A stretch of 64,000 bases of DNA. It comes from Kofleriaceae bacterium. Lineage in GTDB: Bacteria > Myxococcota_A > Polyangia > Haliangiales > Haliangiaceae. The stretch is from positions 1-64,000 of the forward strand of contig JAGPCO010000006.1 of NCBI GenBank assembly GCA_018058095.1, written 5' to 3'. Position 1 is the stretch's first letter. Each line of letters begins with the position of its first letter. A program made the translations under genes and the position numbers. The notes under the pieces were generated by a model. It saw nothing but the letters and a program-made list of their open reading frames with translations, ran no database searches and was not told where the DNA came from. This document shows, piece after piece, positions 17,564 through 62,810 of the stretch.

Positions 17564-18543
17564 GCGCGGCCCGGCGTGACCGTGTGCTGCTGCGGCGCCA
17601 CCCGTCCAACCCCATCCTGTCGGCGGCCGATTGGCCGTACCCGGCCCACGTGGTGTTCAACCCCGGGGCGACCCGCCTGCGCGACGGCACCACGCTGCTG
17701 CTGTGCCGCGTCGAGGACCGGACCGGGCACTCGCACCTGTGCGCGGCGCGGTCGCGCAACGGCATCGATGGCTGGGTGATCGACCCGGAGCCGACGCTCA
17801 GCGCCAACCCCGAGCAGTTCCCCGAGGAGACCTGGGGCATCGAGGATCCCCGCATCACCTGGGTCGAGGAGCTCGGTCGCTACGTCATCGCCTACACCGC
17901 GTACAGCAAGGGCGGCCCCGGCGTGGCGCTGGCCTTGACCGAGGACTTCCGCACGTTCGAGCGGACCGGCCTGGTCATGCAGCCGGACGACAAGGACGCC
18001 GCGTTGCTGCCGCGTCGGGTCGATGGGCAGTTCGCGCTGATCCACCGGCCGATGCACGAGTCCGGTGCACACGTGTGGATCTCGTACTCCCCCGATCTGC
18101 GCAACTGGGGTGGGCACAAGCTGCTGCTGCCAGCGCGGCGGGGCGCCTGGTGGGACGCCAACAAGGTCGGCCTGTCGCCGCCGCTGATCGAGACCCCGGC
18201 CGGCTGGTTGATGCTCTACCACGGGGTGCGTCACACCGCGGCCGGGTGCCTGTACCGGCTCGGGCTGGCCCTGCTCGACCGCGATCACCCCGAGCGGGTG
18301 CTGGCCCGCGGCGACGCCTGGATGTTCGGTCCGGAGGCGCCGTACGAGCGTGCTGGCGACGTCGGCAACGTCGTGTTCCCGTGCGGGACGACCGTGGCCG
18401 ACGACGGCGACACGCTGCACGTCTACTACGGCGCGGCCGACACCTGCATCGGCCTGGCCACCGGCTCGATCGCCGAGATGCTGCGCTGGCTCGAGGACAG
18501 CCCGACCACGGCGCGCGAGCCGATGCCGCCGCTGGCGCCGTAG
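17560..18543 (+). CDS. GH130 family glycoside phosphorylase/hydrolase
   Basis: 327 aa from the GTG at 17560, sharing GTGA with the preceding stop, hence translationally coupled. GH130 enzymes are five-bladed propellers acting on beta-mannosides, often as inverting phosphorylases. Family marks: LLRRHPSNPIL at the N-terminus, FNPGATRL, LLCRVEDRTGHSHLCAARS, the catalytic segment WGIEDPRITW, SPPLIETPAGWLMLYHG and HVYYGAADTCIGLAT near the end. No signal peptide. Together with the GT4 protein it probably makes or recycles a mannose-containing oligosaccharide; the exact linkage cannot be read from sequence. Convergent with cutA, 13 nt apart. Confidence 0.92.
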   Translation: MSAARRDRVLLRRHPSNPILSAADWPYPAHVVFNPGATRLRDGTTLLLCRVEDRTGHSHLCAARSRNGIDGWVIDPEPTLSANPEQFPEETWGIEDPRITWVEELGRYVIAYTAYSKGGPGVALALTEDFRTFERTGLVMQPDDKDAALLPRRVDGQFALIHRPMHESGAHVWISYSPDLRNWGGHKLLLPARRGAWWDANKVGLSPPLIETPAGWLMLYHGVRHTAAGCLYRLGLALLDRDHPERVLARGDAWMFGPEAPYERAGDVGNVVFPCGTTVADDGDTLHVYYGAADTCIGLATGSIAEMLRWLEDSPTTAREPMPPLAP

Positions 18544-46945: not shown

Positions 46946-49900
46946 TCACGGCGCGGTCGGCCCCGGGCGCGGCCGGCCGAAGCGGGCGTACAGCGCCGGC
47001 ACCACCAGCATGTTGAGCGCGGTCGCCGACAGCAGGCCGCCGAGGATGACGATGCCCATCGGCGCCTGCAGCTCGTTGCCGGGCTCGGCCCCGGCCAGCA
47101 CCAGCGGCACCAGGGCCAGGCCGGCGCACAGCGCGGTCATCAGCACCGGCGCCAGCCGCTCCATCGAGCCGCGGGTGACGGCCTCGTCGAAGCCGGCGCC
47201 CTCGACCCGGCGCAGGTGCTCGTAGTGCGACACCATCATGATGCCGTTGCGGGTGGCGATGCCGAACAGGGTGATGAACCCGACCAGCGAGGCGATGCTG
47301 AGCACGCCGTCGGCCAGGTACACCGCGACCACGCCGCCGATCAGCGCCAGCGGCAGGTTGATCATGATGAGCAGCGCGTTGCCCAGGGCCCGGAACGACA
47401 GCAGCAGCAGCCCGAAGATGCCGGCGACCACGGCGGCGCCGAGCAGGAGCAGGGTCCGGCTGGCCGCGCGTTCGCTCTCGAACTGGCCGCCGTAGGCGAC
47501 GTGGTAGCCGGCCGGCATCGGCACGTCGCGCTCGATCCGGGTCCGGATGTCCCTGACGATGCTGCCAAGGTCACGGCCGCTGGTGTTGGCCGACACCACG
47601 ATGCGGCGCTGCACGTTCTCGCGCATGATGAGGTTGGGGCCGATGTCGTCGCGGATCTGCGCCAGCATGCGCAGCGGGACCCGGGCCCCGACCGGCGTGT
47701 CGATGACCGTGTTGCGGATGGCCTCGACGTCGGCGCGCTGGTCGGCCTGGTAGCGCACCACCAGGTCGTGGCTGCGCTGGCCATCGAGGACCCGGGTCAC
47801 CTTGGTGCCGGCGTACGCGGTCTCGATCAGCTCGGCCAGCTCGCCGGTGCGCAGGCCGTAGCGGGCGATGGCGACGCGGTCGAACATGACGGCCAGCTGC
47901 GGCACGTCGACCTGCTGCTCGATGGCCAGGTCGACCACACCCTCGACCCGGCGCATGGCTGCCTCGGTCCGCTGCGCCAGCGCCCGCAGCGTGGCCAGGT
48001 CGTCGCCGAACAGCTTGATGGCGATGCTGGCCCGGGTGCCCGACAGCATGTGGTCGATGCGGTGGGCGATGGGCCCGCCGATGGTGGTGGCCACGCCCGG
48101 CACCGTCGACAGCTGCTGGCGCAGGGCGTCGAGGAAGGCGGCGCGGGAGCGCTTGCCCGGGCGCAGCCGCACGTCGATCTCGGCGGCGTACACGTCCTGC
48201 GCGTGTTCGTCGAGCTCGGCCCGCCCGGTCCGGCGCGCGGTCGACACCACCTCGGGGAACGCGAGCAGGATCTGCTCGACCCGGCGCCCCAGCTTGTCCG
48301 ACTCCGCCAGCGACGTGCCGGGCAGGGTCACCGCGCCGATGGTGAGCGCACCCTCGTTGAACTCGGGCAGGAACGTGCGGCCCAGCCGTGGCACCAGCAC
48401 CACCGTACCGGCCAGGGCGACGGCGACCGCCAGCACGACCGCGCCGGGTCGGCGCACGGCCAGGGCCAGGGCCGGGCGATAGGCCCGCTTGAGCAGGCGC
48501 AGCACCAGCGGATCGGCGTGGCTGGCCGGCGCCGCGGGCGGCAGGAGGTAGGCGCACAGCGCCGGCGTCAGGGTCAGCGCCACCACCAGCGAGGCGAAGA
48601 TCGCGACCAGGTAGGCCACGCCGAGCGGCCGCAGCAGCCGGCCCTCGACCCCGGTCAGGAAGAACAGCGGGATGAACACCAGCATGACGATCAGCGTCGC
48701 GAACACGATCGAGCCGCGCACCTCGCGCGAGGCGTCGAAGATGACGTCGTCGTCGGCCCGGCGCGCCGCCGTGCCGAGGCCGGCGTTCTCGCGCAGGCGC
48801 CGGACCACGTTCTCGACGTCGATGATGGCGTCGTCGACCAGCGCGCCGATGGCGATGGTCAGACCGCCGAGCGACATCGTGTTGATGGTGATGCCGAGCG
48901 CGTCCATCGCCAGCAGCGCCACCACCAGGGCCAGCGGCAGGGTCGCCAGCGAGATGAGGGTGGCGCGCACGTTCCACAGGAACAGCAGCAGCACCACGGC
49001 CACCAGGATCGCGCCGTCGCGTAGCGCGGTCGACACGTTGCGCACCGCGGTGTCGATGAAGTCGGCCTGGCGCACCTTGTCGCGCTCGATCACCATGCCG
49101 TCGGGCAGGCCGCGCTGGATCGCGGTCAGCTCGGCGTCGACCCGGGCGGTCAGCTCGAGCGTGTTGGCGGTCGGCTGCTTCTGGATGCCGAGGATCACCG
49201 CCGGGCGGGCGTTGGACGAACCCTCGCCGCGCTTGACCGCGGCGCCGAGGTCGACGTCGCCGACCTGCCCGACCAGGATGGGCACGCCGTCGCGCACCGC
49301 CACCACCACCTGGGCGATGTCGTCGACCGAGGTGATCCGGCCGACGCCGCGGATGAGCTGCTCCTGGCCGCCGCGCGTGAAGAAGCCGCCGGTCGAGTTG
49401 CCGTTCGACCCGCGCAGCGCCTCGGCCACCTGCTCGAGGGTGACGTCGAAGGCGCGCAGGCGATCGGGGTTGACGTCGACCTGGTACTGCCGGACCTCAC
49501 CGCCGATCGGGACCACCTGGGCCACGCCCGGGATGGCGAGCAGGCGGCGCCGCACCGTCCAGTCGGCGACGTCGCGGACGTCGCGCGGCTCGTGCACGTC
49601 GCTGCGGACGGCGACGAACAGGATCTCGCCCATGATCGACGAGATGGGCGCCAGCGACGGTGGGGTCAGGTCGGGCGGGAGCTGACCGGCGATGGTCTGC
49701 AGCTTCTCGGTGACGATCTGCCGGGCCACGTACTTGTCGGTGCCCCACGCGAACTCGACCCAGACGATGGAGATGCCGATGGCCGAGGCCGAGCGAACCC
49801 GGCGCACCCCGGTCGCGCCGTTGACGGCGGTCTCGATCGGGAAGGTGACCAGCGGCTCGACCTCCTGGGGGGCCAGGCCGTGTGCCTCGGTGACGATGGT

Positions 49901-50101
49901 GACGGTCGGCGCGGTCAGGTCGGGGAACACGTCGACCGGCATGCGCAGGCTGGCGACCACGCCGTAGACGAGCACCGCGACCGAGGCCAGCACGACGATG
50001 AGGCGGTGCGTGATCGACCAGCGGATGAGGCGGTCCATGGCGCCGAGCGCGGCTGGCGCCGGCGCGGGCGCGGAGGTTGGCCCAGGTGGAGTGTGGTCCA
50101 T
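46946..50101 (-). CDS. HME-type RND efflux permease (CzcA/CusA family)
   Basis: About 1051 aa. Proton-driven inner-membrane pump of a tripartite efflux complex, of the heavy-metal type. The ATG at 50101 is chosen because GAGGA lies just before it; 50119 is the alternative. RND topology is clear: an N-terminal helix (WSITHRLIVVLASVAVLVYG), porter domains and clustered helices at residues about 340-530 and 870-1040. The TM4 motif LTIAIGALVDDAIIDVEN has the acidic pair of the HME group. Repeated motifs NGATGVRRVRSAS and FDRVAIARYGL support this. Typical CusA methionine clusters are not evident, so the metal (or another substrate) is uncertain. Adaptor and outer-membrane genes lie upstream in the same operon. 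Confidence 0.94.
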   Translation of the reverse strand: MDHTPPGPTSAPAPAPAALGAMDRLIRWSITHRLIVVLASVAVLVYGVVASLRMPVDVFPDLTAPTVTIVTEAHGLAPQEVEPLVTFPIETAVNGATGVRRVRSASAIGISIVWVEFAWGTDKYVARQIVTEKLQTIAGQLPPDLTPPSLAPISSIMGEILFVAVRSDVHEPRDVRDVADWTVRRRLLAIPGVAQVVPIGGEVRQYQVDVNPDRLRAFDVTLEQVAEALRGSNGNSTGGFFTRGGQEQLIRGVGRITSVDDIAQVVVAVRDGVPILVGQVGDVDLGAAVKRGEGSSNARPAVILGIQKQPTANTLELTARVDAELTAIQRGLPDGMVIERDKVRQADFIDTAVRNVSTALRDGAILVAVVLLLFLWNVRATLISLATLPLALVVALLAMDALGITINTMSLGGLTIAIGALVDDAIIDVENVVRRLRENAGLGTAARRADDDVIFDASREVRGSIVFATLIVMLVFIPLFFLTGVEGRLLRPLGVAYLVAIFASLVVALTLTPALCAYLLPPAAPASHADPLVLRLLKRAYRPALALAVRRPGAVVLAVAVALAGTVVLVPRLGRTFLPEFNEGALTIGAVTLPGTSLAESDKLGRRVEQILLAFPEVVSTARRTGRAELDEHAQDVYAAEIDVRLRPGKRSRAAFLDALRQQLSTVPGVATTIGGPIAHRIDHMLSGTRASIAIKLFGDDLATLRALAQRTEAAMRRVEGVVDLAIEQQVDVPQLAVMFDRVAIARYGLRTGELAELIETAYAGTKVTRVLDGQRSHDLVVRYQADQRADVEAIRNTVIDTPVGARVPLRMLAQIRDDIGPNLIMRENVQRRIVVSANTSGRDLGSIVRDIRTRIERDVPMPAGYHVAYGGQFESERAASRTLLLLGAAVVAGIFGLLLLSFRALGNALLIMINLPLALIGGVVAVYLADGVLSIASLVGFITLFGIATRNGIMMVSHYEHLRRVEGAGFDEAVTRGSMERLAPVLMTALCAGLALVPLVLAGAEPGNELQAPMGIVILGGLLSATALNMLVVPALYARFGRPRPGPTAP

Positions 50102-50108
50102 GGGGTCC

Positions 50109-51682
<1,574 letters not shown>

Positions 51683-51686
<4 letters not shown>

Positions 51687-52951
51687 GGACGTCTCCCCAG
51701 CGTGGTCCACAGGTCGAGCTCGGCCAGCCCGGCGTCGCGCCGCAGCGCGAGCTCGCGCAGGCGGGTGTCGCGAGAGATGGCGAAGGCGTCGAGCAAGGCG
51801 ACCAGATCGTCCCCGCCGGCACCATCGCGGTAGGCAGCCTCGGCCGATCGGCGCAGCTGATCGAGCCGGGCCACCTGGTCGCGGCCGATGGTGTCGACGC
51901 GCGCCAGCAGCTGGCGCAGCGCCAGGTGGCGGGCGCGCAGCTCGAGCGGAACCCGGCGCGCCAGCGTCGCCTGGTCGGCCTCTGCCGCCTGGCGCAGCGC
52001 GCGGGCGCGGGCGGCCTCGGCCCGGCCGCGGTCGAACACCGGCAACGACAGCGCCAGGCCGGCGACGTAGCCCAGCGCGAGGTCGGCGTCGGCGGCCTGC
52101 TGGGTCATGATCCCGGCTGCGAGCGAGAGGTCTGGGACCCAGGCCCGGTCGGCGGCGCGGGCCAGGGCCCTGGCGCTGTCGCGACGGGCCGCGACGGCGC
52201 GGGTCTCGGCGCGATCGGTCAACGCCGACGTCAGCAGCTGCTCGAGCGGAGGTGGTGGCGCGGGCACCACGACCGCGGCGTCGGCGTCGACCCCGGTGTC
52301 GGCGCCGACGAGCGTTCCCAGCTCGAGGCGGGTGGCGGCGAGCTCGCCCTCGGCCTCGGCCAGGTGGTCGTCGTAGCTGGCCAGCTCGAGCTGGACGCGC
52401 TGCAGGTCGTAGCCTGCGGCCGCGCCGGCGGCGCTGCGCCGGGCCACGATCTCGACGGCGCCAGCCAGCGCGGCGCGTTCGGTGCGCAGCAGGTCGACCC
52501 GGGCCCGCGCGTAGGCGGCGAGACGGAACACCCGCAGCGCCTGCATCTGCAGCACGAACCCGGACGCGTCCTCGTCGGCGCTCACCGCACGGGCCTCGGC
52601 GCGGGCCGCCTCGACGCGCGCGCCGCGCCGGCCCGACAGCTCGAGCGGCACGGTCGCTCGCAGGTAGTTGCTGGTGCCGCCGCCGGCGCCGAAGGCCTGC
52701 TCGCGATCGAGCGCCAGCCCGGGGTTGGGGCGGACGGCGGCGGCGCCAATCTCGGCTCGGGCCAGCGTGGTGCGGGCGGCGAGCTGGGCCCGGCGTGGGT
52801 CGGACGCCAGGCGGGCCAGGAACTCGGCCTCGGTGATCATCGGCGGGACGGTCGGCGCTGCGGTCAGGTCCGCACCCTGGCCTCGCGCCGGCGCGGCGAG
52901 CAGCAGCGACGGAACCGAGACAACTATCAATGGTAGTAGCAGGGCGCGCAT
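51683..52951 (-). CDS. TolC-type outer-membrane channel (CzcC/CusC-like)
   Basis: 422 aa. Sec signal peptide ([19 protein letters not shown], cut near ARGQ). Two repeats of long amphipathic helices ([40 protein letters not shown]) with beta segments typical of the TolC family; [30 protein letters not shown] and [23 protein letters not shown] carry the SAGxxx-like turn. First gene of the structural tripartite set. A 19-bp dyad overlaps codons 5-11. The M56 protease gene ends 28 nt upstream. Confidence 0.92.
52921..52939. promoter_or_regulatory. Candidate BlaI-type dyad, site A
   Basis: CAACTATCAATGGTAGTAG: arms related by dyad symmetry (CxACTAyCA / TGrTAGTxG) around a central base. It lies within the first codons of the TolC-type gene and shares CWACKATC and TAGTAG with site B at 54337-54355. 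BlaI-family operators typically contain ACTAC/GTAGT half-sites. Its position inside a coding region weakens the case. Confidence 0.4.
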
Positions 52952-52979
52952 GACGTGACGGTCCTCCTGGCGGGGGCGA

Positions 52980-53927
52980 CTACCCGAGCAGCGACTCGAG
53001 GGCGTGGTGGAGCGGGCCAGCGAAGGAGATGGTCAGGCCCACCACCACCAGCCCGGCCAGGCCGACCTGGCGAGCCAGCCGGCGGGCGCTGGCGACGCCG
53101 GTCGGCGCCTCGTCGAGCATCGCGTGGACTCGCTCGGCCAGCAGCGGCGGCGGCGGCGCGAAGGCTGCGATCATGCCCACCGGCACGGGTCCTCGCTGGG
53201 CCCGCGCCATGCGCACCAGGGCGCGGGCGACCGCGTCGGCGCTGGTGGCGGCCGCCGCGTCGACGTCACGAAGGCGCTCCGTCGCCGCGTCCCAGCGGGC
53301 CCGCAGCGAACCGGCCAGGCCGGGCGCGGCCAGCAGCAGCGCCAGCTCGAGGCGCAGGCGCCGGCCGAGGTCGCGCTCGGTGACGTGGCCACGCTCGTGC
53401 GCCAGCATCGCCGCCCACTCGTCGTCGGCCAGGGCCGCACGGGCCGCGGTCGAGGCGTACACCGCCGGGTGGCGCAGGCCAGCGACGAAGCAGAACACGC
53501 GCGGGCTCTCGACCAGGTGCACGCCGGAGGCCGGCAGCGCGGCGCGCAGCCGGGCCACCGCATGCCAGCCGCGCAGCAGGGTCGTCATCAGCGCCGCGCC
53601 CCGGGTCAGGACCAGCACGCCGGCGCCGAGCAACAAGGCGAGGGCCCACGGCCGCTCGGCCCAGGCCAGGCCGTGGCGCAGGCACAGGTGGGCGTGGTCG
53701 CCATGGTTGTCGCAGTGGTCGAGGCCGACCAGCGACTCGATCAGCAGCACCAGGACCACGGCCCCGGCGAGGATCACCGGCACCACGGCGGCCAGTTCGA
53801 CCAGGCGGCGCTCCGTCGCTGGCCCGCGCCGGCGCAGGCGCGGCGCCAGCGCGGCCAGCGCCGCCGAGGTGACGCCGGCGACGAGCACGAACACCACGGC
53901 GAAGCCGACCAGGCTGACCGCGCTCAC
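52980..53927 (-). CDS. M56 (BlaR1-like) membrane metalloprotease with His/Cys-rich loop
   Basis: 315 aa from a GTG sharing GTGA with the repressor stop. M56 proteins are zinc metalloproteases in the membrane that cleave BlaI-type repressors. Three N-terminal spans are visible (about residues 3-27, 45-68 and 90-110), the zinc motif HERGH (His 177, Glu 178, His 181) lies in a cytoplasmic domain, and one span is near the end. There is no penicillin-binding sensor domain as in BlaR1. Instead the loop at residues 70-85 (DHCDNHGDHAHLCLRH) has six His and two Cys, a likely metal site on the outer face. Gene order with BlaI and the RND set suggests it senses metal and relieves repression. Confidence 0.9.
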   Translation of the reverse strand: MSAVSLVGFAVVFVLVAGVTSAALAALAPRLRRRGPATERRLVELAAVVPVILAGAVVLVLLIESLVGLDHCDNHGDHAHLCLRHGLAWAERPWALALLLGAGVLVLTRGAALMTTLLRGWHAVARLRAALPASGVHLVESPRVFCFVAGLRHPAVYASTAARAALADDEWAAMLAHERGHVTERDLGRRLRLELALLLAAPGLAGSLRARWDAATERLRDVDAAAATSADAVARALVRMARAQRGPVPVGMIAAFAPPPPLLAERVHAMLDEAPTGVASARRLARQVGLAGLVVVGLTISFAGPLHHALESLLG

Positions 53928-54313
53928 CGCCGCCTCCGCCGCGCCGCGATCAGCTCCTCGAGCTGGCGCAGGTGGGCCTCGCTCAGATCGGCGGCGACGT
54001 CGACGAACGCCGCCAGCACCGGGCCCGAGCCACGCTCGAGCAGCGGCCCCAGCGCGGCCTCGACCACCCGCCGCTGGTACTCGGCGCGATCGAGCGCCGG
54101 CCGGTACACGAACGCCAGCCCGGCCTTGGTCCGGGCGAGTAGCCCCTTCTTGAACAGCCGATCGAGCGTGGTCATCACCGTCGTGTAGGCCAGCCCGCCT
54201 CCGATCCGCCGCTGCACCTGCCTCACCGCCAGCGGCCCGACATCCCACAGCAGCTCCATCACCCGCTGTTCGAGCTCACCCAGCACGCGGGCGGCATCGT
54301 CGAACGTACGCAT
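53924..54313 (-). CDS. BlaI/MecI/CopY family transcriptional repressor
   Basis: 129 aa. The ATG at 54313 is favoured: TACCCA lies 7 nt upstream, and 129 aa is normal for the family, whereas 54370 would add an atypical 19-residue leader. Winged helix: LGELEQRVMELLWDVGPLAVRQVQRRIGGGLAYTTVMTTLDRLFKKGLLARTK (in sections), with AYTTVMTTLDRL as the recognition helix. C-terminal helices mediate dimerisation. Probably represses itself, the coupled protease and the efflux genes; a 19-bp dyad lies over its promoter. First gene of the regulatory pair. Confidence 0.93.
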   Translation of the reverse strand: MRTFDDAARVLGELEQRVMELLWDVGPLAVRQVQRRIGGGLAYTTVMTTLDRLFKKGLLARTKAGLAFVYRPALDRAEYQRRVVEAALGPLLERGSGPVLAAFVDVAADLSEAHLRQLEELIAARRRRR

Positions 54314-54320
54314 CTGATCA

Positions 54321-54326
54321 TGGGTA
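54321..54326 (-). promoter_or_regulatory. Candidate -10 box TACCCA for the BlaI gene
   Basis: TACCCA on the minus strand ends 7 nt before the ATG at 54313. Site B lies just upstream, covering the expected -35 region. Confidence 0.4.
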
Positions 54327-54336
54327 CACCACTGGC

Positions 54337-54355
54337 CTACGATCGGCAATAGTAG
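54337..54355. promoter_or_regulatory. Candidate BlaI-type dyad, site B
   Basis: CTACGATCGGCAATAGTAG: arms CTACxATxG / CxATxGTAG. It lies in the divergent region between the repressor and the EamA gene, 23 nt from the repressor ATG and about 30 nt from the EamA ATG, so it could control both directions. It shares 12 of 19 positions with site A. Confidence 0.5.
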
Positions 54356-54384
54356 GATGGGCCGCCGCATGGCAGGATGGCGCC

Positions 54385-55431
54385 ATGAGCGCGTCGTCGT
54401 CGCTCCGCGCCGGCGTGGTGCTCGCTGCGATCGCCGCCGTGGCGTTCGGCCTCACCACGCCGATCGTGGCCTGGGCCGGCCAGGGCCTGGGCCCGCTGGC
54501 GACCGCGTCCTTGCTCTACCTCGGCGCAGCGGTCGCTGCTGCCGTCTTGCGGATCGTTCGCGGCCACGCCGAGGCGCCCTTGCGTCGGGCCGACCTCGGC
54601 CGGGTCGTTGCGGTCGCGCTCGTCGGTGGCGCGCTGGCTCCGACTTTGCTGGCGTGGGGGTTGCAGCGGGCCGGCGCCACCGTCGGGTCCCTGCTGCTCA
54701 ACCTCGAGGCGGTGTTCACGGTGCTGCTGGCCTGGGTGTGGTTCCGAGAGCCAATCGGCCCGCGTGTGGCCCTGGCGCTGCTGGCCATGCTCGGTGGCGG
54801 CGCCGCGCTCACCGCCGAAGCGTGGGGCGCGACGCGATGGGGCCTGGCCGGAATCCTCGCCGTCGCCGGCGCGACCGCGGCGTGGGCCGTCGACAACACC
54901 CTGACCCGGCCGCTGGCCGAGCGCGATCCGCTCGAGGTGGTGGCGAGCAAGGGCGGGCTCGGCGCGCTCGTCACCGCGATCACCGCCGTGCTCGCCGGGG
55001 AGGCCTGGCCGAGCCCGACCGCGGCCACCGTCCTGCTGCTGTGTGGCGCCACCGGCTATGGCCTCAGCCTGCGTCTGTACCTGCTGGCACAGCGGCGCAT
55101 CGGCGCCGGGCGGACCGGCTCGGTGTTCGCGCTGGCGCCGTTCATTGGCGCCGCCGTGGCCACCGCCCTGGGCAACCGCACCGGCGGAGAGTGGACCGCG
55201 GTGGCGGCGGTGCTCTTCGCGCTCGGTGTGTACCTCCACCTGACCGAGCGGCACGCGCACCCGCACCAGCACCCCGCCCTCGCACACGATCACCTCCACC
55301 GGCACCTCGATCCCCACCACGCGCACACGCATGACCCACCGTTCGTCGGGGAACACGCCCATCCGCATCAGCACGATGCGCTGGCGCACGATCACGAACA
55401 CGCGCCGGATGTCCACCACGACCACCATTGA
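54385..55431 (+). CDS. EamA/DMT permease with a His-rich cytoplasmic tail
   Basis: 348 aa. Ten hydrophobic segments in two EamA repeats (VVLAAIAAVAFGLTTPIV, GATVGSLLLNLEAVFTVLLAW, GLAGILAVAGATAAWAVDNT, LSLRLYLLAQRRIGAGRTGS) to about residue 285. EamA proteins export metabolites or drugs. The last 60 residues are exceptional: repeated HAHPHQH and AHDHEH blocks, 23 histidines in all, like the metal-binding loops of CDF and ZIP transporters. Being divergent from the BlaI/M56/RND set and near site B, it may be part of a metal response. Metal transport is inference; the tail could be a buffer or sensor. Confidence 0.88.
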   Translation: MSASSSLRAGVVLAAIAAVAFGLTTPIVAWAGQGLGPLATASLLYLGAAVAAAVLRIVRGHAEAPLRRADLGRVVAVALVGGALAPTLLAWGLQRAGATVGSLLLNLEAVFTVLLAWVWFREPIGPRVALALLAMLGGGAALTAEAWGATRWGLAGILAVAGATAAWAVDNTLTRPLAERDPLEVVASKGGLGALVTAITAVLAGEAWPSPTAATVLLLCGATGYGLSLRLYLLAQRRIGAGRTGSVFALAPFIGAAVATALGNRTGGEWTAVAAVLFALGVYLHLTERHAHPHQHPALAHDHLHRHLDPHHAHTHDPPFVGEHAHPHQHDALAHDHEHAPDVHHDHH

Positions 55432-56340: not shown

Positions 56341-56393
56341 GGAGCCCGTCCCGTCGGCTGGAGCCGCCGGCACGGGTTTCAGCAGCCTGCTAG
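56341..56393 (-). repeat. Dispersed structured repeat, copy 2
   Basis: Minus-strand copy of the element at 1571-1625: same CTAGCAGGCTGCTGAAA start, same stem arms, different tetraloop. It provides the TAG stop of the ytfE gene in the same phase as in copy 1. A mirrored end (GCAGCTTGCTGAAAA, 56323-56337, plus strand) makes the region inverted-repeat bounded, and CCTGCTAG occurs as a direct repeat at 56301-56308 and 56386-56393. Confidence 0.8.
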
Positions 56394-57055
56394 CGCCCGA
56401 GCGCGCGCGGGAACAACACGTGATTCTCGAGGTGGATGTGCTCCATCAGCTCGCGTTCGAGGCGGGCCAGCCCGGCGTACAGCGCTCGCCAGGTCGCGCA
56501 AGCATGAGGTGGTGGCACGTGGTCGCCGGTCAGGGCCCGAAGGCCGCGCAGGTTCACCGCGTGTTCATCGTGCTCGTGCCGCATCACCTGCACGGGCGCG
56601 TGGGCCATGGCGCCCTGGCCCTGGCGGATCATCGGGAACAGGACTCGCTCCTCCTTCATCATGTGCGACTGCAGCTCGTTCCACATGTGCTGCAGGCCGG
56701 CACCGAGACCGGTCGGCACCGCCGGCTTACCGGCGTGGACGCGTTCGACCTTGTGGGCGGCGGCGATCAACGGCGGCACGTCGTCTCGCAGGGTCTGGTG
56801 GTATCGAGCCTCGATGTGATCGCACAGCTCGACCAGGGGCATCTGCGCCCAGGCCGGGGGCGGCTCGGTGCTGCGTCGCGACGCCGCGTCCAGCTCGGCC
56901 GCGATCACGGCCGCGTCCAGGCCGGCGCTGGCGCAGGCCGCGCCCAGGGTGCGCTCACCGCCGCAGCAGAAATCGAGCCGGTGCCGCAGCAGCACGGTCG
57001 TCGCGTCTGGCAGGTCTCGCGCCAGCGCGCCCAGGGTCTCTTGCGTCAGGTCCAT
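56390..57055 (-). CDS. ytfE: YtfE/RIC/ScdA di-iron repair of iron centres protein
   Basis: 221 aa; ATG at 57055 is preceded by AGGA and matches the family start. RIC proteins repair Fe-S clusters damaged by nitric oxide. The ScdA_N domain has DFCCGG (residues about 28-33). The hemerythrin-like domain carries the di-iron ligands: CDHIEARYH, HMMKEERVLFP, MRHEHDEH and HIHLENHVLFP. All are intact. A -10-like TACGAC lies about 25 nt upstream. Gene context (nirK, norCB, Crp/Fnr regulator) fits a nitric oxide stress role. Confidence 0.95.
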   Translation of the reverse strand: MDLTQETLGALARDLPDATTVLLRHRLDFCCGGERTLGAACASAGLDAAVIAAELDAASRRSTEPPPAWAQMPLVELCDHIEARYHQTLRDDVPPLIAAAHKVERVHAGKPAVPTGLGAGLQHMWNELQSHMMKEERVLFPMIRQGQGAMAHAPVQVMRHEHDEHAVNLRGLRALTGDHVPPPHACATWRALYAGLARLERELMEHIHLENHVLFPRALGR

Positions 57056-57115
57056 CGGAGGTTCCTTGGTTGGGGCGGTCGTAGCCACCGAACAGGGTCG
57101 CAGCAGGTCAGCCGT

Positions 57116-57889
57116 TCACCGGCTGAACGAGAACCACAGGTGTGCAGCTCGGTAGTCGACCCCGGTGGCGTCAGCGCCGCCGAGGATCTTGCCGAAGGTC
57201 CACGACGCGCCGACGTTCATCGCCGGGCTCAGCGTCAACACGCCGGAGGCCCCGAACGAGACCTCCCACCGGTCGGCCAGCCCGTCGAGCGGGCCCTTGA
57301 AGCCGGTGCCGAGCCCGAGCGCGACGGCGGGCGCGACCTTGTATTGCGCGAGCACGGGGATCCAGAGCGACTCCTTGTTGGTGTCGCGCTCGGTCAGCCC
57401 GACGAACATGCTGGGTGAGGTGGCGATCGAGACCGCGCCCACCACGTGCCGGAGCTTGGCCCCGACCTTGGCCGCGATGGCGCCGCCATCCAGGTCGAGC
57501 GCGTGCAGGCCGACGTTGGCCGCGAACGACGTTGGGCCCGTGGCCAACGCATAGAGCCCCTCGATCCCAGCGTTGTCGTAGACCCCGGCACATCCACCGT
57601 CGGTCCCATTCAGGCACAGGCCACGCCCGGCACCGCCACGAAAGCCGGTGAGGGCGAAGGTCGAGCTGAGCAGCGACACGGTCAGCGCGTCGGTGACCCC
57701 GTAGCTCAGGTCGGGCGCGAGCGAGGTGGGCTTGCCGGCCACGCCGGCGGAGAGGTTCATCTCGACCGTCGCGGTCACGCTGGCTCGGCCGCGTGGCAGG
57801 GTCAGCCCAGGGCCGGCATGGGCGCGCTGGGCGGAACCAGCAAAGAGCAACGTGGTGAGGAGCAGCGAGGACGCGGTGCGCAAGTGCAT
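57116..57889 (-). CDS. Outer-membrane beta-barrel-like protein
   Basis: 257 aa. Sec signal peptide (about residues 1-25, cleavage after RAHAG). The mature part is a series of amphipathic strands with Gly turns (RASVTATVEMNLSAGV, APDLSYGVTDALTVSLLSS, KLRHVVGAVSIATSPSMFVGL, MNVGASWTFGKILGG) and ends with an aromatic residue pattern, AHLWFSFSR, typical of outer-membrane insertion. Length fits a 10- to 12-stranded barrel. Two cysteines (GLCLNGTDGGCAG) could form a loop disulfide. Substrate unknown; the position between ytfE and the regulator suggests expression with denitrification. Confidence 0.75.
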   Translation of the reverse strand: MHLRTASSLLLTTLLFAGSAQRAHAGPGLTLPRGRASVTATVEMNLSAGVAGKPTSLAPDLSYGVTDALTVSLLSSTFALTGFRGGAGRGLCLNGTDGGCAGVYDNAGIEGLYALATGPTSFAANVGLHALDLDGGAIAAKVGAKLRHVVGAVSIATSPSMFVGLTERDTNKESLWIPVLAQYKVAPAVALGLGTGFKGPLDGLADRWEVSFGASGVLTLSPAMNVGASWTFGKILGGADATGVDYRAAHLWFSFSR

Positions 57890-58043
57890 GGCGCCGCGTC
57901 AAGCAAGACAGGTGCCACGACCCGTGAAGCGACCCTGGGTCCCCCGGACCTGCCGAGGCCAGCTCGCAATTCGCGCAAAGCCTGCCCCAAGGCCCCCTGA
58001 CAGGCGAACCACGCGCGTTGCCCACGGTGGTGATCCTTGCAGG

Positions 58044-58049
58044 TACACT
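58044..58049 (+). promoter_or_regulatory. Candidate -10 box TACACT for the Crp/Fnr regulator
   Basis: TACACT ends 8 nt before the ATG at 58058, supporting that ATG over the TTG at 58037. Confidence 0.4.
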
Positions 58050-58057
58050 GTCTCCAC

Positions 58058-58792
58058 ATGCCTCAGGTGCCGCTCACGCCTCAGCTGGCCGTCGAACAGC
58101 AGGCCCTCACCGAGCGCCTGCGCCGGGCCCGCCACTTCCGCACGCTGCCGCCGGTGGCGATGCGGACCCTGGTCGACGTCGCCCGTGTTCGTTCGATGCG
58201 GGCCGGGGAGGTGTTGTGGCGAGCCGGCGACGCTGGTACGGGTTTCACGTTCGTCGACCGTGGCCTGGTGATGATCTCGACACCGCGATCGAATGGAGGC
58301 GCGGCCGTGCTGGGGGTGTTCGGACCCGACGACTGTGTCGGTATCTCGGCGGTGCTGGCGCGGGCGCCATACCCCGCCGATGCGGTGGCGCTGGCGCCTG
58401 ACACCCGCGTGCTGGTGTTTCCTGCCGCCGCCGTGCTGGCGGCCGTGGAGGGCCACCGGGCCTGCGCAGACCTGGTCCAGGCCGCCGTCACCGATCACAC
58501 CGCGGCGCTGCGCATGAAGATCGAGATCCTGTCGGCCGGCACCGTGCCTGCCAGGGTCGCCGCGTTCCTGCTGTACCTCGGCAGCCGCTTCGGTCATCCC
58601 CATGCGATGGGCAGCGTGAGCATCCCGGTCATGGTGACCCGCGCTCAGATCGCCCAGATCGTCGCGGCCCGCCCCGAGACCGTGATCCGAGCCTTCGCGG
58701 CGTGGCGACGACAGCGCATCGTCGCGACCGGCCCCGAAGGCTTCGAGCTGAAGGCGGTCGGGCGCTTGCACGCGATCGCCGCTGGGGAATGA
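58058..58792 (+). CDS. Crp/Fnr family regulator, DNR/NnrR-like
   Basis: 244 aa. N-terminal cyclic-nucleotide-like sensor domain (VLWRAGDAGTGFTFVDRGLVMIS, VLGVFGPDDCVGISAVLA), a dimer helix, and a C-terminal winged helix (VTRAQIAQIVAARPETVIRAFAAWRRQRIV). FNR's N-terminal Cys cluster is absent, so it does not hold an Fe-S cluster; this and the position before nirK suggest a nitric oxide sensor of the DNR/NnrR type. A FNR-like box lies upstream of the next gene. Only the sensor type is inferred; family is firm. Confidence 0.92.
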   Translation: MPQVPLTPQLAVEQQALTERLRRARHFRTLPPVAMRTLVDVARVRSMRAGEVLWRAGDAGTGFTFVDRGLVMISTPRSNGGAAVLGVFGPDDCVGISAVLARAPYPADAVALAPDTRVLVFPAAAVLAAVEGHRACADLVQAAVTDHTAALRMKIEILSAGTVPARVAAFLLYLGSRFGHPHAMGSVSIPVMVTRAQIAQIVAARPETVIRAFAAWRRQRIVATGPEGFELKAVGRLHAIAAGE

Positions 58793-58831
58793 TCGGGTCG
58801 CAGTAGATCCGCAAACATTGCGCCCTGCGTC

Positions 58832-58845
58832 ATGACATCGATCAT
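58832..58845. promoter_or_regulatory. FNR/DNR-like box upstream of nirK
   Basis: ATGACATCGATCAT compared with consensus TTGAT-N4-ATCAA: TGA and ATCA core matches with correct 5-4-5 spacing. Its centre is about 40 nt before the likely start given by a TCTAGG -10-like string at 58866-58871, which fits class II activation. Confidence 0.6.
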
Positions 58846-58907
58846 GCAGGTGTCGCCGGTCGCTCTCTAGGGTGGGCCCCAACTCCCAACCAACGAGTGA
58901 ACCGGAC

Positions 58908-60419
58908 ATGCGCTCCTTCAAGACGCCCTCTGCTCTCATCCTGGTCGCCGCACTCGGCGCGACGGTGGCCTGTAAGAACCGCACACGCACGGAGCCGGCT
59001 CCGACGCCAGCCCCCGCGACCCAGCCGGTCCACGACATCACCAGTCCACCGACCGGTGACCCCATCGTGGCCGAGCTGACCGACCCGCCCTTCGTGCCAG
59101 CACCGATCACCCGGACCAAGCCGGCCAAGGTCATCGTCAACCTCGAGGTTCGCGAGATCACCCGGCCGATCTCCGACGGCGTCGACTACACGTTCTGGAC
59201 GTTCGGCGGCGTGGTGCCGGGCAAGTTCATCCGGGTCCGGCAGGGCGATCAGGTCGAGTTCCACCTGCAGAACCACCCCGACTCGAAGATGCCGCACAAC
59301 ATCGACCTGCACGCCGTCACCGGTCCTGGTGGTGGCGCCGCGTCGAGCTTCACCGCGCCTGGTCACCAGTCGCAGTTCAGCTTCAAGGCGATCAACCCTG
59401 GCCTGTACATTTATCACTGTGCGACCGCGCCGGTGCCGATGCACGTCGCCAACGGCATGTACGGCCTGATCCTGGTCGAGCCGCCGGGTGGCCTGCCGCC
59501 GGTCGACCGCGAGTACTACGTGGTGCAGGGCGACTTCTACACCGTCGGCAAGTACCACCAGAAGGGCCTGCAGCCGTTCGACATGCAGAAGGGCATCGAC
59601 GAGCACCCGACCTACATCGTGTTCAACGGCTCGGAGGGAGCCCTGGTCGGCGACAACGCGCTCAAGGCCAAGGTCGGCGAGCGTGTCCGCCTGTACTTCG
59701 GCGTCGGTGGTCCCAACGTGACGTCGAGCTTCCACGTCATCGGCGAGATCTTCGACAAGGTCTACTACGAGGGTGGCTCGCATTTCCAGGAGAACGTCCA
59801 GACCACGATGGTGCCGGCCGGAGGCTCGACCATCGTCGAGTTCAAGGTCGAGGTGCCGGGCACCTACGTGCTGGTCGACCACTCGCTGTTCCGGGCCTTC
59901 AACAAGGGCGCGGTCGGCATGCTCAAGGTCGAGGGGCCCGAGGACAAGGCCACCTACTCCGGCAAGGAGGTCGACTCGATCTACCTGTCGGAGAAGGCCG
60001 GTTCGACCGCCGCGGTCGGGGTCGCGACCGCGGCCGCGGCCGGGGGCACGCTCACCCCGGAGATGCAGATCCAGGCCGGCGCGGCGCTCTTCGCCGGGAC
60101 CTGCTCGAGCTGCCACATGCCGGACGGCAAGGGTGTGCCGCCGGTGTTCCCGCCGCTGGCCGCCTCGGACTTCTTGACCGGCAAGAGCAAGGACGAGGTG
60201 ATCGGCGTGGTCCTCAACGGCCTGTCGGGCAAGGTCACGGTCAACGGCGCCGAGTACAACTCGGTGATGCCGCCGTGGAGTCACCTCAACGACGACGATA
60301 TCGCCAACATCCTGACGTACGTCTACAGCAGCTTCGGCAACAAGAAGAACACGGTCTCGGCCAAGGACGTCGAGCGTGTGCGCGCCACCACCAAGCGCCC
60401 GCCCGGCGCCGGCCACTGA
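58908..60419 (+). CDS. nirK: Copper nitrite reductase fused to cytochrome c
   Basis: 503 aa. Reduces nitrite to nitric oxide in the periplasm. N-terminal signal with a lipobox-like VACKN and a Pro/Thr linker. Two cupredoxin domains follow. Type 1 copper ligands: His 130 (PHNIDLH), Cys 171 (YHC), His 179 and Met 184 (PMHVANGM). Type 2 ligands: His 135, His 170 and His 276 (SSFHVIG). A C-terminal cytochrome c domain has CSSCHMPDG (Cys 399, Cys 402, His 403) and a later Met in NSVMPPW, as in the known three-domain NirK fusions. The tethered heme can pass electrons to type 1 copper. First gene of the denitrification operon; a FNR-like box precedes it. Confidence 0.96.
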
Positions 60420-60429
60420 GGAGCGCCCG

Positions 60430-61296
60430 ATGCGGGGCGGACGTGTCATGGCCGGGGTGGTCCACGCGCTGCTGGCCTTCGGGTTGCTGGCGGCGCCGGC
60501 GCACGGCGCGCCATCGGCGCGAGCCAGGCTGCGCCGGAGCGCGCCGATGGTCACGGTCGGCCCTGGCACCTACCGGCCGATGTTCCCGGCCGCTCCGGCC
60601 GAGGCCACCGTCGCGGTGCGGGCGTTTCGCCTCGACGTCTATCCGGTCACCAATCGCGACTTCCTCGCGTTCGTCCTCGCGGCCCCACGATGGCAACGCG
60701 GCGCGGCCTCGGGGTTGTTCGTCGACAGCAACTACCTGACCCACTGGGCCGGTCCACGCGAACTCGGCAGCGCCGGACCTGATCGCCCGGTGACCCGCGT
60801 CTCGTGGTTCGCGGCCAAGGCGTTCTGCGAGGCACATGGCCAGCGCCTGCCGACCGAGCGGGAATGGGAGCTCGCCGCGGCCGCCAGCCCGACCTCCGTC
60901 GACGGTGATCTCGACGAGGCGTGGCGGACCCAGGTGCTCGACTGGTACCACGCGCCGACGGCGGCGCTGGGGCCGGTGGGCCGGCGACCGGCCAATCTCT
61001 GGGGTGTCCACGACCTGCACGGCCTGGTCTGGGAGTGGGTCTACGACTACAACGCCGCGCTCGTGGCGATCGACTCGCGCGAGAAGAGCGACGGCGACAA
61101 GGGCCGCTTCTGCGGCGCCGGGGCCGCGTTCGCCGCCGACACCACCGACTTCGCCGAGTTCATGCGCCTGGCGTACCGCAGCTCCCTCGAGGGCGGCTAT
61201 GCGGCCAACAACCTCGGGTTCCGTTGCGCGCGCGACCTCGATGGCGCAGCCAAGCACTCGCCGCGCCGTGCGGCCGGGTCGGAGGGAGCGCGATGA
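60430..61296 (+). CDS. nirV: NirV-like formylglycine-generating-enzyme-fold protein
   Basis: 288 aa; ATG at 60430 follows GAGGAG. A signal peptide (residues about 7-29, cut near AHG) directs it to the periplasm. The SUMF1/FGE fold is clear: FRLDVYPVTNRDFLAFV, RPVTRVSWFAAKAFCEAHGQRLPTEREWELAAA (in parts), NLWGVHDLHGLVWEWVYDYN (in parts), and the end YAANNLGFRCAR. NirV genes accompany nirK in many denitrifiers; the role is not established, probably maturation. The stop overlaps the next gene start. Confidence 0.92.
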   Translation: MRGGRVMAGVVHALLAFGLLAAPAHGAPSARARLRRSAPMVTVGPGTYRPMFPAAPAEATVAVRAFRLDVYPVTNRDFLAFVLAAPRWQRGAASGLFVDSNYLTHWAGPRELGSAGPDRPVTRVSWFAAKAFCEAHGQRLPTEREWELAAAASPTSVDGDLDEAWRTQVLDWYHAPTAALGPVGRRPANLWGVHDLHGLVWEWVYDYNAALVAIDSREKSDGDKGRFCGAGAAFAADTTDFAEFMRLAYRSSLEGGYAANNLGFRCARDLDGAAKHSPRRAAGSEGAR

Positions 61297-62042
61297 GCCA
61301 AGTACCCTGCACTACAACCTCGCCAACGCGGCGATGGATACCGGTCGCCCGGGTGGCCACTGCCAGCGTGCTCGTCATGCTGGCGAGCTGCGACCGCAGC
61401 GGCGGTACCTCGACGCCGACGGCCACACGGCCGACCGCCCCGGCCACCGTTGCCGTGTTGGTCGACGCCCTGGGCCAGCCACCCTCCGGCCAGGGCGATC
61501 ACGTCGACCCCTCCGCGGCGGTCCGGCCCGAGGATCCCGAGCACCCACTGTCTCAACACCCGATCTACGACCTCGAGGTCGAGATGATCGACCTGCACGG
61601 GGCCACCATCGGGCTCGACGTCTGGCGCGGGCACCCGACGATCGTCGCGATGTTCTACGCCAGCTGCCCGGTGGCCTGCCCGCGGCTGATGAGGGAGATC
61701 CTCGAGATCGAGGCGTCGTTGCCGCACGAGCAGCGGGACTCGCTCCGGGTGTTGATGGTGTCGTTCGATGCCAGCAACGACACCCCCGCGGTGCTGACCG
61801 AGCTGGCCGCCACCCACAAGGTCGACCTGACTCGCTGGCAACTGGCCGCGGCGCCCGAGGCGCGCGCCCGTGAGCTCGCCGCCGTGCTGGGGGTGAAGTA
61901 CCGCACGCTCGATGACGGGCAGTTCTTCCACACCTCGGTCATCACCCTCATCGACGGCGCTGGCCGGCCGCTGGCCCGCGTCGAGGGTCTCGGTCGTTCG
62001 ACGGAACCGCTACGGCAAAGCCTGGCCAGCGCTCGCCCCTGA
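61293..62042 (+). CDS. SCO1/SenC family copper chaperone lipoprotein
   Basis: 249 aa; ATG shares ATGA with the nirV stop. Lipoprotein signal (VARVATASVLVMLASC). Thioredoxin fold with the copper motif YASCPVACP (CxxxC) and the distal His in GQFFHTSVITLID. SCO proteins deliver copper or act as thiol reductases; in this operon it probably loads the NirK copper sites (inference). Other family features: VSFDASNDTPAVL, ELAAVLGVKYRTL. Confidence 0.93.
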   Translation: MSQVPCTTTSPTRRWIPVARVATASVLVMLASCDRSGGTSTPTATRPTAPATVAVLVDALGQPPSGQGDHVDPSAAVRPEDPEHPLSQHPIYDLEVEMIDLHGATIGLDVWRGHPTIVAMFYASCPVACPRLMREILEIEASLPHEQRDSLRVLMVSFDASNDTPAVLTELAATHKVDLTRWQLAAAPEARARELAAVLGVKYRTLDDGQFFHTSVITLIDGAGRPLARVEGLGRSTEPLRQSLASARP

Positions 62043-62096
62043 TCCGCGCGCCACCCACGCAACCACGTTTCACGCCCCTCAACCTGGAGGTCTCCC

Positions 62097-62810
62097 TTGC
62101 TCTCGAAAAAACGAGCCCGCGCCTTCTTCCTCGTCGGGACCGGTCTGTGTTCGGTCGCCTTCATCGGCCTGACCGTCGATACCCTGGCCCGCGTTCCTGC
62201 CCAGACCCGCGCCGCCAGCATCACCCCGGCGGTCGAGCGCGGCAAGGACCTGTGGGACGAGTCCAACTGCATGGGCTGCCACACGCTGTTCGGCGAGGGC
62301 GCCTACTACGCCCCCGAGCTGACCAAGGTGTTCGACCGGCGTGGCCCAGTCTTCATCGACGCCATGCTGGCCAATCCCGAGAAGATGTACCCGGGCCAGC
62401 GCAAGATGTGGAACTACCACTTCACCCCGGCGCAGCGCGCCGACCTGGTGGCGTTCTTCGAGTGGGCCGGTAAGGTCGACCTCAACGGCTTCCCGGCGCG
62501 GCCCTCGCTCGGTGCCGTCGCCACCATCGGCGCGAGCGGCGCCGCCGGGACCGCCAACCGGGCCAGCCGGCCCGACGTGTTCAACCAGCTGTGCCTGGCC
62601 TGCCACAAGCTCGGTGGTGAAGGTGGCGCGGTCGGGCCGGCCCTCGATGGCGTCGGCCTCCGCTTGCCGCGCGAGCAGATCGTGACCTGGCTGCACGACC
62701 CGCCCGCGGTCAAGCCTGGCACCGCGATGCCCAAGCTGCCGCTGACCGAGGGCCAGATCCAGGAGCTGGCCGCGTTCCTGTCGACCCAGACCACCGGAGG
62801 TGCGCCGTGA
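62097..62810 (+). CDS. norC: Nitric oxide reductase subunit NorC with an extra cytochrome c domain
   Basis: 237 aa from a TTG at 62097, decided by a GGAGGT site 6 nt upstream. NorC passes electrons to NorB. One N-terminal membrane segment (AFFLVGTGLCSVAFIGLTVDTL in parts), then the NorC heme domain: DESNCMGCHTLFGEGAYYAPELTKV (Cys 58, Cys 61, His 62; in parts). Typical NorC is about 150 residues with one heme. Here a second domain continues with LCLACHKLGGEGG (Cys 166, Cys 169, His 170) and PGTAMPKL as a Met-ligand region, so it is a diheme fusion. Stop overlaps norB. Confidence 0.95.
   Translation: MLSKKRARAFFLVGTGLCSVAFIGLTVDTLARVPAQTRAASITPAVERGKDLWDESNCMGCHTLFGEGAYYAPELTKVFDRRGPVFIDAMLANPEKMYPGQRKMWNYHFTPAQRADLVAFFEWAGKVDLNGFPARPSLGAVATIGASGAAGTANRASRPDVFNQLCLACHKLGGEGGAVGPALDGVGLRLPREQIVTWLHDPPAVKPGTAMPKLPLTEGQIQELAAFLSTQTTGGAP

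Follow-up and report, generated by a model that had tools for sequence, protein, structure and literature searches.

The DNA considered here is a stretch of 64,000 nucleotides (the window) from contig JAGPCO010000006.1 of a Kofleriaceae bacterium (assembly GCA_018058095.1). It contains an operon in which genes for a BlaI-type repressor and a short M56-type membrane protease are followed by those of a heavy-metal-efflux resistance-nodulation-division (HME-RND) system. The protease, with a loop rich in His and Cys and a short C-terminal motif, is the main subject of this analysis. The features of the locus are the following (TM, transmembrane).

46946-54313, minus strand: compact operon of five genes (blaI, M56, tolC, adaptor, HME-RND)
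53924..54313, minus strand: repressor of the BlaI/MecI/CopY family, 129 residues, without Cys (PF03965, 93.9 bits)
52980..53927, minus strand: short M56/BlaR1-like membrane metalloprotease and putative sensor, 315 residues, GTG start
53673..53720, minus strand: His/Cys loop DHCDNHGDHAHLCLRH, residues 70-85 of M56
53385..53399, minus strand: catalytic HExxH, residues 177-181 of M56, in 34/34 homologues
52995..53009, minus strand: C-terminal HHxxE motif, residues 307-311 of M56, predicted extracytoplasmic
54337..54355, minus strand: predicted operator palindrome CTACTATTGCCGATCGTAG, 19 bp, between blaI and the divergent EamA gene
51683..52951, minus strand: TolC-family outer-membrane factor (OEP; PF02321)
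about 50109..51686, minus strand: CusB/CzcB-like adaptor (HlyD_D23; PF16576, TIGR01730)
46946..50119, minus strand: HME-RND pump with TM4 motif AIGALVDDAIIDVEN (ACR_tran; TIGR00914, 837 bits, cut-off 701)
54385..55431, plus strand: divergent, accessory EamA permease with a His-rich tail (PF00892)

The M56 and blaI reading frames share 4 bp and, because all five genes lie on the same strand with overlaps or a 28-bp gap, they are read as one operon. An earlier note on this DNA had proposed that BlaI is followed by TolC, a His-rich adaptor and an HME-RND pump, and coordinates and family matches agree; the adaptor has a His-rich N terminus (HGHDH...HGHG) and ends with HGHAH. The same note described the M56 protein as devoid of a β-lactam sensor and as carrying a His/Cys loop between two spans. 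Both descriptions hold, as the penicillin-binding sensor domain is absent, the 315-residue protein stopping 14 residues past its last TM helix, and residues 70-85 lie between two predicted helices. Two elements go beyond that note, namely the C-terminal HHxxE, which is predicted to face the same side as the loop, and a conserved operator. Comparison of sequences establishes the operon structure, the genomic coupling to the pump and the conservation of several elements, namely the loop, the tail, the catalytic residues, the predicted cleavage sites and the operator, the last being also usually unique in its genome.

In Pfam, the window protease matches only PF01435 (Peptidase_M48) and not PF05569 (Peptidase_M56), and a search of the whole genome with PF05569 has as its sole match the other M56 copy. 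Plasmid homologues of the protein are labelled M56 in the NCBI annotation. A PDB sequence search with the protease gives no match. Its AlphaFold model, confident overall (predicted local distance difference test, pLDDT, 91.6), has four long membrane helices. The relevant Foldseek matches are Ste24p (probability 0.99) and BlaR1 8exs (probability 0.94), both with E > 0.01, and HtpX; none of the three has E < 0.001. By its residues and these matches, the window protease is placed in the BlaR1/Ste24 group.

In 290 genomes of the same class, homologues were found in 45 and their neighbourhoods compared; the gene order BlaI, M56, TolC, adaptor and RND is repeated across them. Conservation was read from an alignment of 34 M56 sequences with 23-51% identity to the window protein. 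All 34 have the gluzincin motifs H177ExxH181 and E217xxxD221 (H177, E178, H181, E217 and D221) as well as R266, equivalent to Arg294 of BlaR1, and 32 have D186 (H181+5), equivalent to Asp210. In BlaR1, autocleavage takes place just before Phe284, which precedes Arg294 by ten residues, and BlaI is cut at Asn101-Phe102 (PMC9834060). In the window protein F256 sits 10 residues before R266, as an equivalent of the autocleavage site, and a Phe occurs at position 256 or 258 in 29/34 homologues.

According to cryo-EM, BlaR1 has both ends outside, its extracellular loop 1 (EL1) lies between helices 2 and 3, and helix 3 connects EL1 to the protease (PMC9834060). The His/Cys loop is placed between predicted helices 2 and 3, the position of EL1. 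Lys plus Arg make up 21% of the TM1-TM2 loop, 2% of the His/Cys loop and 0% of the tail; residues 68-92 contain 24% His and 2% Lys plus Arg. From the AlphaFold helices and this charge distribution, an N-out/C-out topology with a cytosolic protease is predicted. With its loop between helices 2 and 3 and its tail past the last helix, the protein would have the His/Cys loop in place of EL1, and HHxxE where a sensor domain would begin.

The earlier note had named loss of the loop residues in orthologues as the outcome that would speak against it; H71, C72, H80 and C82 are present in 34/34 sequences, H78 and H85 in 33/34, D70 and H75 in 31/34. In the tail, H307 and E311 are invariant (34/34) and H308 is found in 33/34; the further invariant positions are M1, P50, A224 and A234. 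The loop Cys and His match the catalytic residues in conservation, and therefore the loop is as constrained as the active site. Rare substitutions in the 34 homologues replace D70 by Cys in three and H85 by Cys in one; judged by the residues exchanged, these changes preserve ligand chemistry. Paralogues with a degenerate loop exist (the second copy of locus L053, L071, L150/L171 and L151/L180). H308 is lost in 4/4 of them against 1/34 in the alignment (Fisher p ~7e-5, kinship ignored), a joint loss that a single site built from loop and tail would predict. At L053 the degenerate pair (16516-17903, loop ACLLDHDTAELC) is a second BlaI-M56 pair located directly 3' of RND-EamA genes, with its own CTACTA-type palindrome.

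The reach of the motif was explored by scanning a degenerate DNA pattern of the loop across ~85,000 genomes; the pattern demands GAC as the Asp codon, so that AT-rich genomes are under-sampled. The scan gives 65 stretches, of which 58 lie in M56-type open reading frames with HExxH, two belong to the same family at sequence ends and five are unrelated. A chance origin of the motif is ruled out by these 58 + 2 of 65 stretches. Hosts include Myxococcota, Gammaproteobacteria (Pleionea, Cellvibrio, Marinimicrobium, Gilvimarinus, Thiocapsa and a tubeworm symbiont), Holophaga-type Acidobacteriota, and one metagenome-assembled genome (MAG) each of Riflebacteria and Krumholzibacteriota. This type I loop is missing from the other M56 paralogues in 13 loop-bearing genomes, and from the second BlaI-M56 pair of the window genome, which lies on another contig. 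A single-protein scan of genome contigs gave no confirmed relatives, and no pattern could be built from the full alignment, whose sequences differ too much; the DNA pattern of the loop took its place. The P0001 query had no match in plasmids; a BlaI query did recover a Shewanella-type form.

This plasmid form is a BlaI-M56-TolC-membrane fusion protein-RND cassette (L205:2636-9707, L206:8995-16112, L207:8995-16066), carried by Shewanella conjugative plasmids, a Salmonella IncC plasmid and a Pseudoalteromonas plasmid. It combines a CzcA-type pump, an annotated HupE and a DUF6488 protein with the same operator, the HHxxE tail and a Cys-free loop, HWHHxD. Both the loop and the HHxxE tail are missing from the BlaI-M56 pairs of seven actinobacterial plasmid records, which rules out HHxxE as a general trait of short M56 proteins. 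At the actinobacterial plasmid loci L208, L210, L212 and L213, some of them near copper genes (CopC, multicopper oxidase, P-type ATPase), M56 has no His loop but carries one Cys in the region of the loop and another close to its C terminus; these pairs may be a different metal or thiol sensor.

Coupling of the loop to metal export was assessed at 51 loop-bearing loci. The sequence extends for 4.5 kb or more downstream in 41 of them, and in 39 of the 41 an HME-RND gene lies downstream (38 on the same strand at ≥300 bits, and a partial one in L064), as anticipated by the earlier note, which had looked to neighbouring RND genes. The two exceptions are L067 and Exilibacterium. In Exilibacterium the BlaI-M56 pair is unlinked from the pump operon, and the genome has two operator loci, one at blaI and one 412 bp upstream of the start of the TolC-adaptor-HME-RND operon. 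Thus, the second operator copy ties regulator and pump despite their separate map positions.

The operator itself is a palindrome upstream of blaI, centred on ATTGNC and conserved in most loci. In the clade of the window it reads CTAC(T/G)ATTGNCNNT(A/C)GTAG, elsewhere AACCGATTGACNATCGGTT, and Myxococcota, Gammaproteobacteria and Krumholzibacteriota have a common core. Most true upstream regions score 14-19, and shuffled regions rarely exceed 13. The palindrome overlaps a TTGNNN -35 box of blaI (TTGAC), read as such because the best -10 match falls at a 17-bp spacer (A2 and T6 in 17/41 sites, against 0-8 at other spacings). At ≤1 mismatch it is a single site in the 7.57-Mb genome of the window and in most other genomes, consistent with a dedicated repressor that regulates its own gene. 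The window copy also lies just upstream of the divergent EamA gene. A possible second palindrome at the start of tolC (near 52925-52940) has no operator match within 3 mismatches and was dropped. In the repressor, A102 is found in 51/55 homologues and F103 in 48/55, aligned with the MecI/BlaI N101-F102 scissile bond; A102-F103 is thus the predicted cleavage bond.

Very probably, this system is a self-contained metal-responsive proteolytic switch, in which extracytoplasmic metal activates M56, M56 cleaves BlaI, and the HME-RND pump is derepressed. Metal binding, M56 activation, BlaI cleavage and derepression can be inferred from the comparisons above as follows. In the resting state, BlaI would bind the palindrome that covers the -35 box of the blaI promoter and repress the whole operon, perhaps with the divergent EamA gene. 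M56 would be an inner-membrane protein whose two ends face outwards. A rise in periplasmic metal would lead to its binding by the Cys/His loop that connects helices 2 and 3, in which the HHxxE tail would probably take part; binding would shift helix 3 and free the cytoplasmic zinc active site. The freed protease would then cut BlaI at A102-F103 and release the operator, the pump being produced until metal drops.

Three other explanations deserve consideration. In the best of them, itself unlikely, the loop is a redox or thiol sensor whose Cys pair forms a disulfide reporting periplasmic oxidative or thiol stress, which induces the pump. Both loop Cys are present throughout the type I family, in an oxidising compartment, but four His and one Asp of the loop are equally or nearly equally conserved, and Shewanella-type homologues without loop Cys retain the operator, the metal pump and HHxxE. 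Moreover, the swaps of H85 and D70 to Cys fit metal ligands, and the outputs are metal pumps and His-rich proteins. Distinctly less likely still, loop and tail would be a metal buffer or a donor to the pump, the protease answering another envelope signal, for instance peptidoglycan fragments or misfolded protein. His is also abundant in the adaptor, in the EamA tail and in small neighbours, and BlaR systems can respond to cell-wall fragments, according to one report (PMC3305447); however, in BlaR1 the signal is carried by EL1, whose position the loop occupies exactly, and a donor needs no fusion to a repressor-cleaving protease. Least credible is metal sensing by BlaI itself in the manner of CopY, with M56 merely degrading apo- or metal-BlaI constitutively: the repressor belongs to the BlaI/MecI/CopY superfamily and matches the CopY_TcrY model weakly (41.9 bits, cut-off 122), but 40/55 BlaI homologues lack any Cys and no Cys column is conserved, so that a CopY-type mechanism is unlikely, window BlaI holds one His, and the invariance of loop and tail in the protease is left unexplained.

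Several observations weigh against the metal-responsive switch, or at least against its details. The loop block is the least confident part of the M56 model (pLDDT 66), and in the 34-sequence alignment no invariant or near-invariant Tyr corresponds to Tyr261 of BlaR1. Locus L067 bears the loop without an adjacent RND gene; conversely, L071 has a degenerate loop and nevertheless an adjacent RND pump. The Shewanella-type plasmids keep operator, pump and HHxxE with a Cys-free loop, which indicates that the exact loop motif is not essential to the architecture. Finally, many loci come from MAGs and several are near-identical or close relatives, so that the counts are not independent.

As to the metal, the positions of the copper Met triad of CusA align with non-Met residues in the window pump. 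An assignment from its sequence as CusA (HME4) or CzcA (HME1) was rejected, since its TM4 motif AIGALVDDAI is neither CusA-like (AVGAMVDAAI) nor CzcA-like (DFGxIVDGA); TM4 signatures are tied to HME-RND substrates in a published scheme (PMC7060636). Within this set of operons, L168, L071 and the plasmid form are the only ones whose pump has the DFG motif. Neighbours read by eye from their open reading frames include CDF, ZIP, His-rich secreted and DUF411 proteins. Divalent ions of the Zn/Cd/Co/Ni type are on balance the expected ligands, as indicated by the CDF and ZIP genes nearby and by the pumps of the Cellvibrio and plasmid forms, which are CzcA-type. Other loci have a DUF411 gene and a P-type ATPase in their vicinity, again read by eye, and these speak for copper; Cu/Ag is a tentative assignment, well short of even chances.

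Other BlaI-M56 arrangements have loops of their own. At L171:6638-10302, L234:4761-8352 and L235:791-4361, the pair is divergent from a conserved TonB-dependent receptor gene, and the protease has a HCHxxVCxPH or similar loop (HCHxxxCxxH) with a HxxLEW tail; this suggests a metal-controlled receptor gene. At L241:1899-3730 and L242:6781-8988, a pair with loop EHCxxHC...HIHLC is followed by genes for small, extremely His-rich secreted proteins, without a pump. It is conceivable, at somewhat less than even confidence, that all these proteins form a single class, spread across phyla, of modular BlaR1-like proteases that sense metal, whose extracytoplasmic loop is an interchangeable metal-recognition module and whose loop type predicts metal and output. 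DHCxxH..HxHLCxxH loops would then drive VDDAI-type HME-RND pumps, Cys-free HWHHxD loops on conjugative plasmids CzcA-type pumps, and EHCxxHC..HIHLC loops His-rich secreted proteins, while HCHxxxCxxH loops would stand opposite TonB receptors. A C-terminal HxxxE would be common to all, and an ATTG-centred operator to the pump-linked forms.

Two neighbours of the operon call for a comment. For the divergent EamA gene, the permease and its His-rich tail proposed in the earlier note are borne out, with 24 His among the final 75 residues. This tail (23-25 His in the last 75 residues) is strongly conserved and recurs beside the BlaI-M56-RND system (L033, L034, L037, L050, L053, L056, L058-L060, L093, L097 and L103); the permease is probably a metal transporter of an unstudied type. 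A denitrification-like cluster adjoins the operon at 56390-62810 of the window, with genes for a ScdA/hemerythrin protein, a Cu nitrite-reductase-like protein fused to cytochrome c, SCO1, a NorC-like cytochrome c and a Crp/Fnr-like regulator.

If the proposed switch is correct, transmembrane proteolysis of the BlaR1 type extends from antibiotics and a single cyanobacterial copper case to the control of metal efflux in five or more phyla, Shewanella and Salmonella conjugative plasmids included. The compact receptor, 315 residues without a sensor domain, implies that a ligand site may be reduced to a 16-residue loop and a five-residue tail. The long-standing question of how an outside ligand activates an inside protease would become directly testable, and the conserved operator together with the natural loop variants offers a ready set for metal-specific biosensors. 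No description of a BlaI-M56-HME-RND operon was found in the open-access library searched; a survey of marine bacteria mentions BlaR homologues without an assigned role in heterotrophs (PMC10141476).

Among known systems, BlaR1/BlaI and MecR1/MecI of Staphylococcus aureus share with the present one a gluzincin with HExxH/ExxxD and the Asp and Arg equivalents, N-out/C-out (predicted here), a Phe before the Arg of the autocleavage loop, a P1' Phe in BlaI and side-by-side genes. In contrast, the present M56 lacks the penicillin-binding sensor domain and has a short HHxxE tail in its stead, the place of EL1 is taken by a His/Cys loop, and the output is a metal pump. With CopY/TcrY, the repressors share one DNA-binding superfamily controlling metal export, but CopY binds metal via its own Cys, and the present repressors have no conserved Cys. 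CusRS and CzcRS likewise drive HME-RND expression upon periplasmic metal sensing (proposed here), yet by histidine kinase phosphorylation instead of the repressor proteolysis proposed. The closest precedent is the copper-responsive PetP/PetR pair of Synechocystis, reportedly described by Garcia-Canas et al. in 2021. PetP is reported to degrade PetR when copper is present in Synechocystis sp. PCC 6803, a BlaI-family regulator being inactivated by a membrane BlaR1-like protease on metal, as proposed here (PMC12292863, PMC7896320, PMC13421787). The concept of a metal-responsive BlaR/BlaI system, which the earlier note took for mere inference, is thus not new. Compared by description rather than by sequence, PetRP switches plastocyanin and cytochrome c6 in cyanobacteria, whereas the present system governs an HME-RND export operon and occurs in Myxococcota, Gammaproteobacteria, Acidobacteriota and others. 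What is new is a widespread, efflux-linked BlaI-M56 variant with a defined loop and tail, a cross-phylum operator and a link to efflux.

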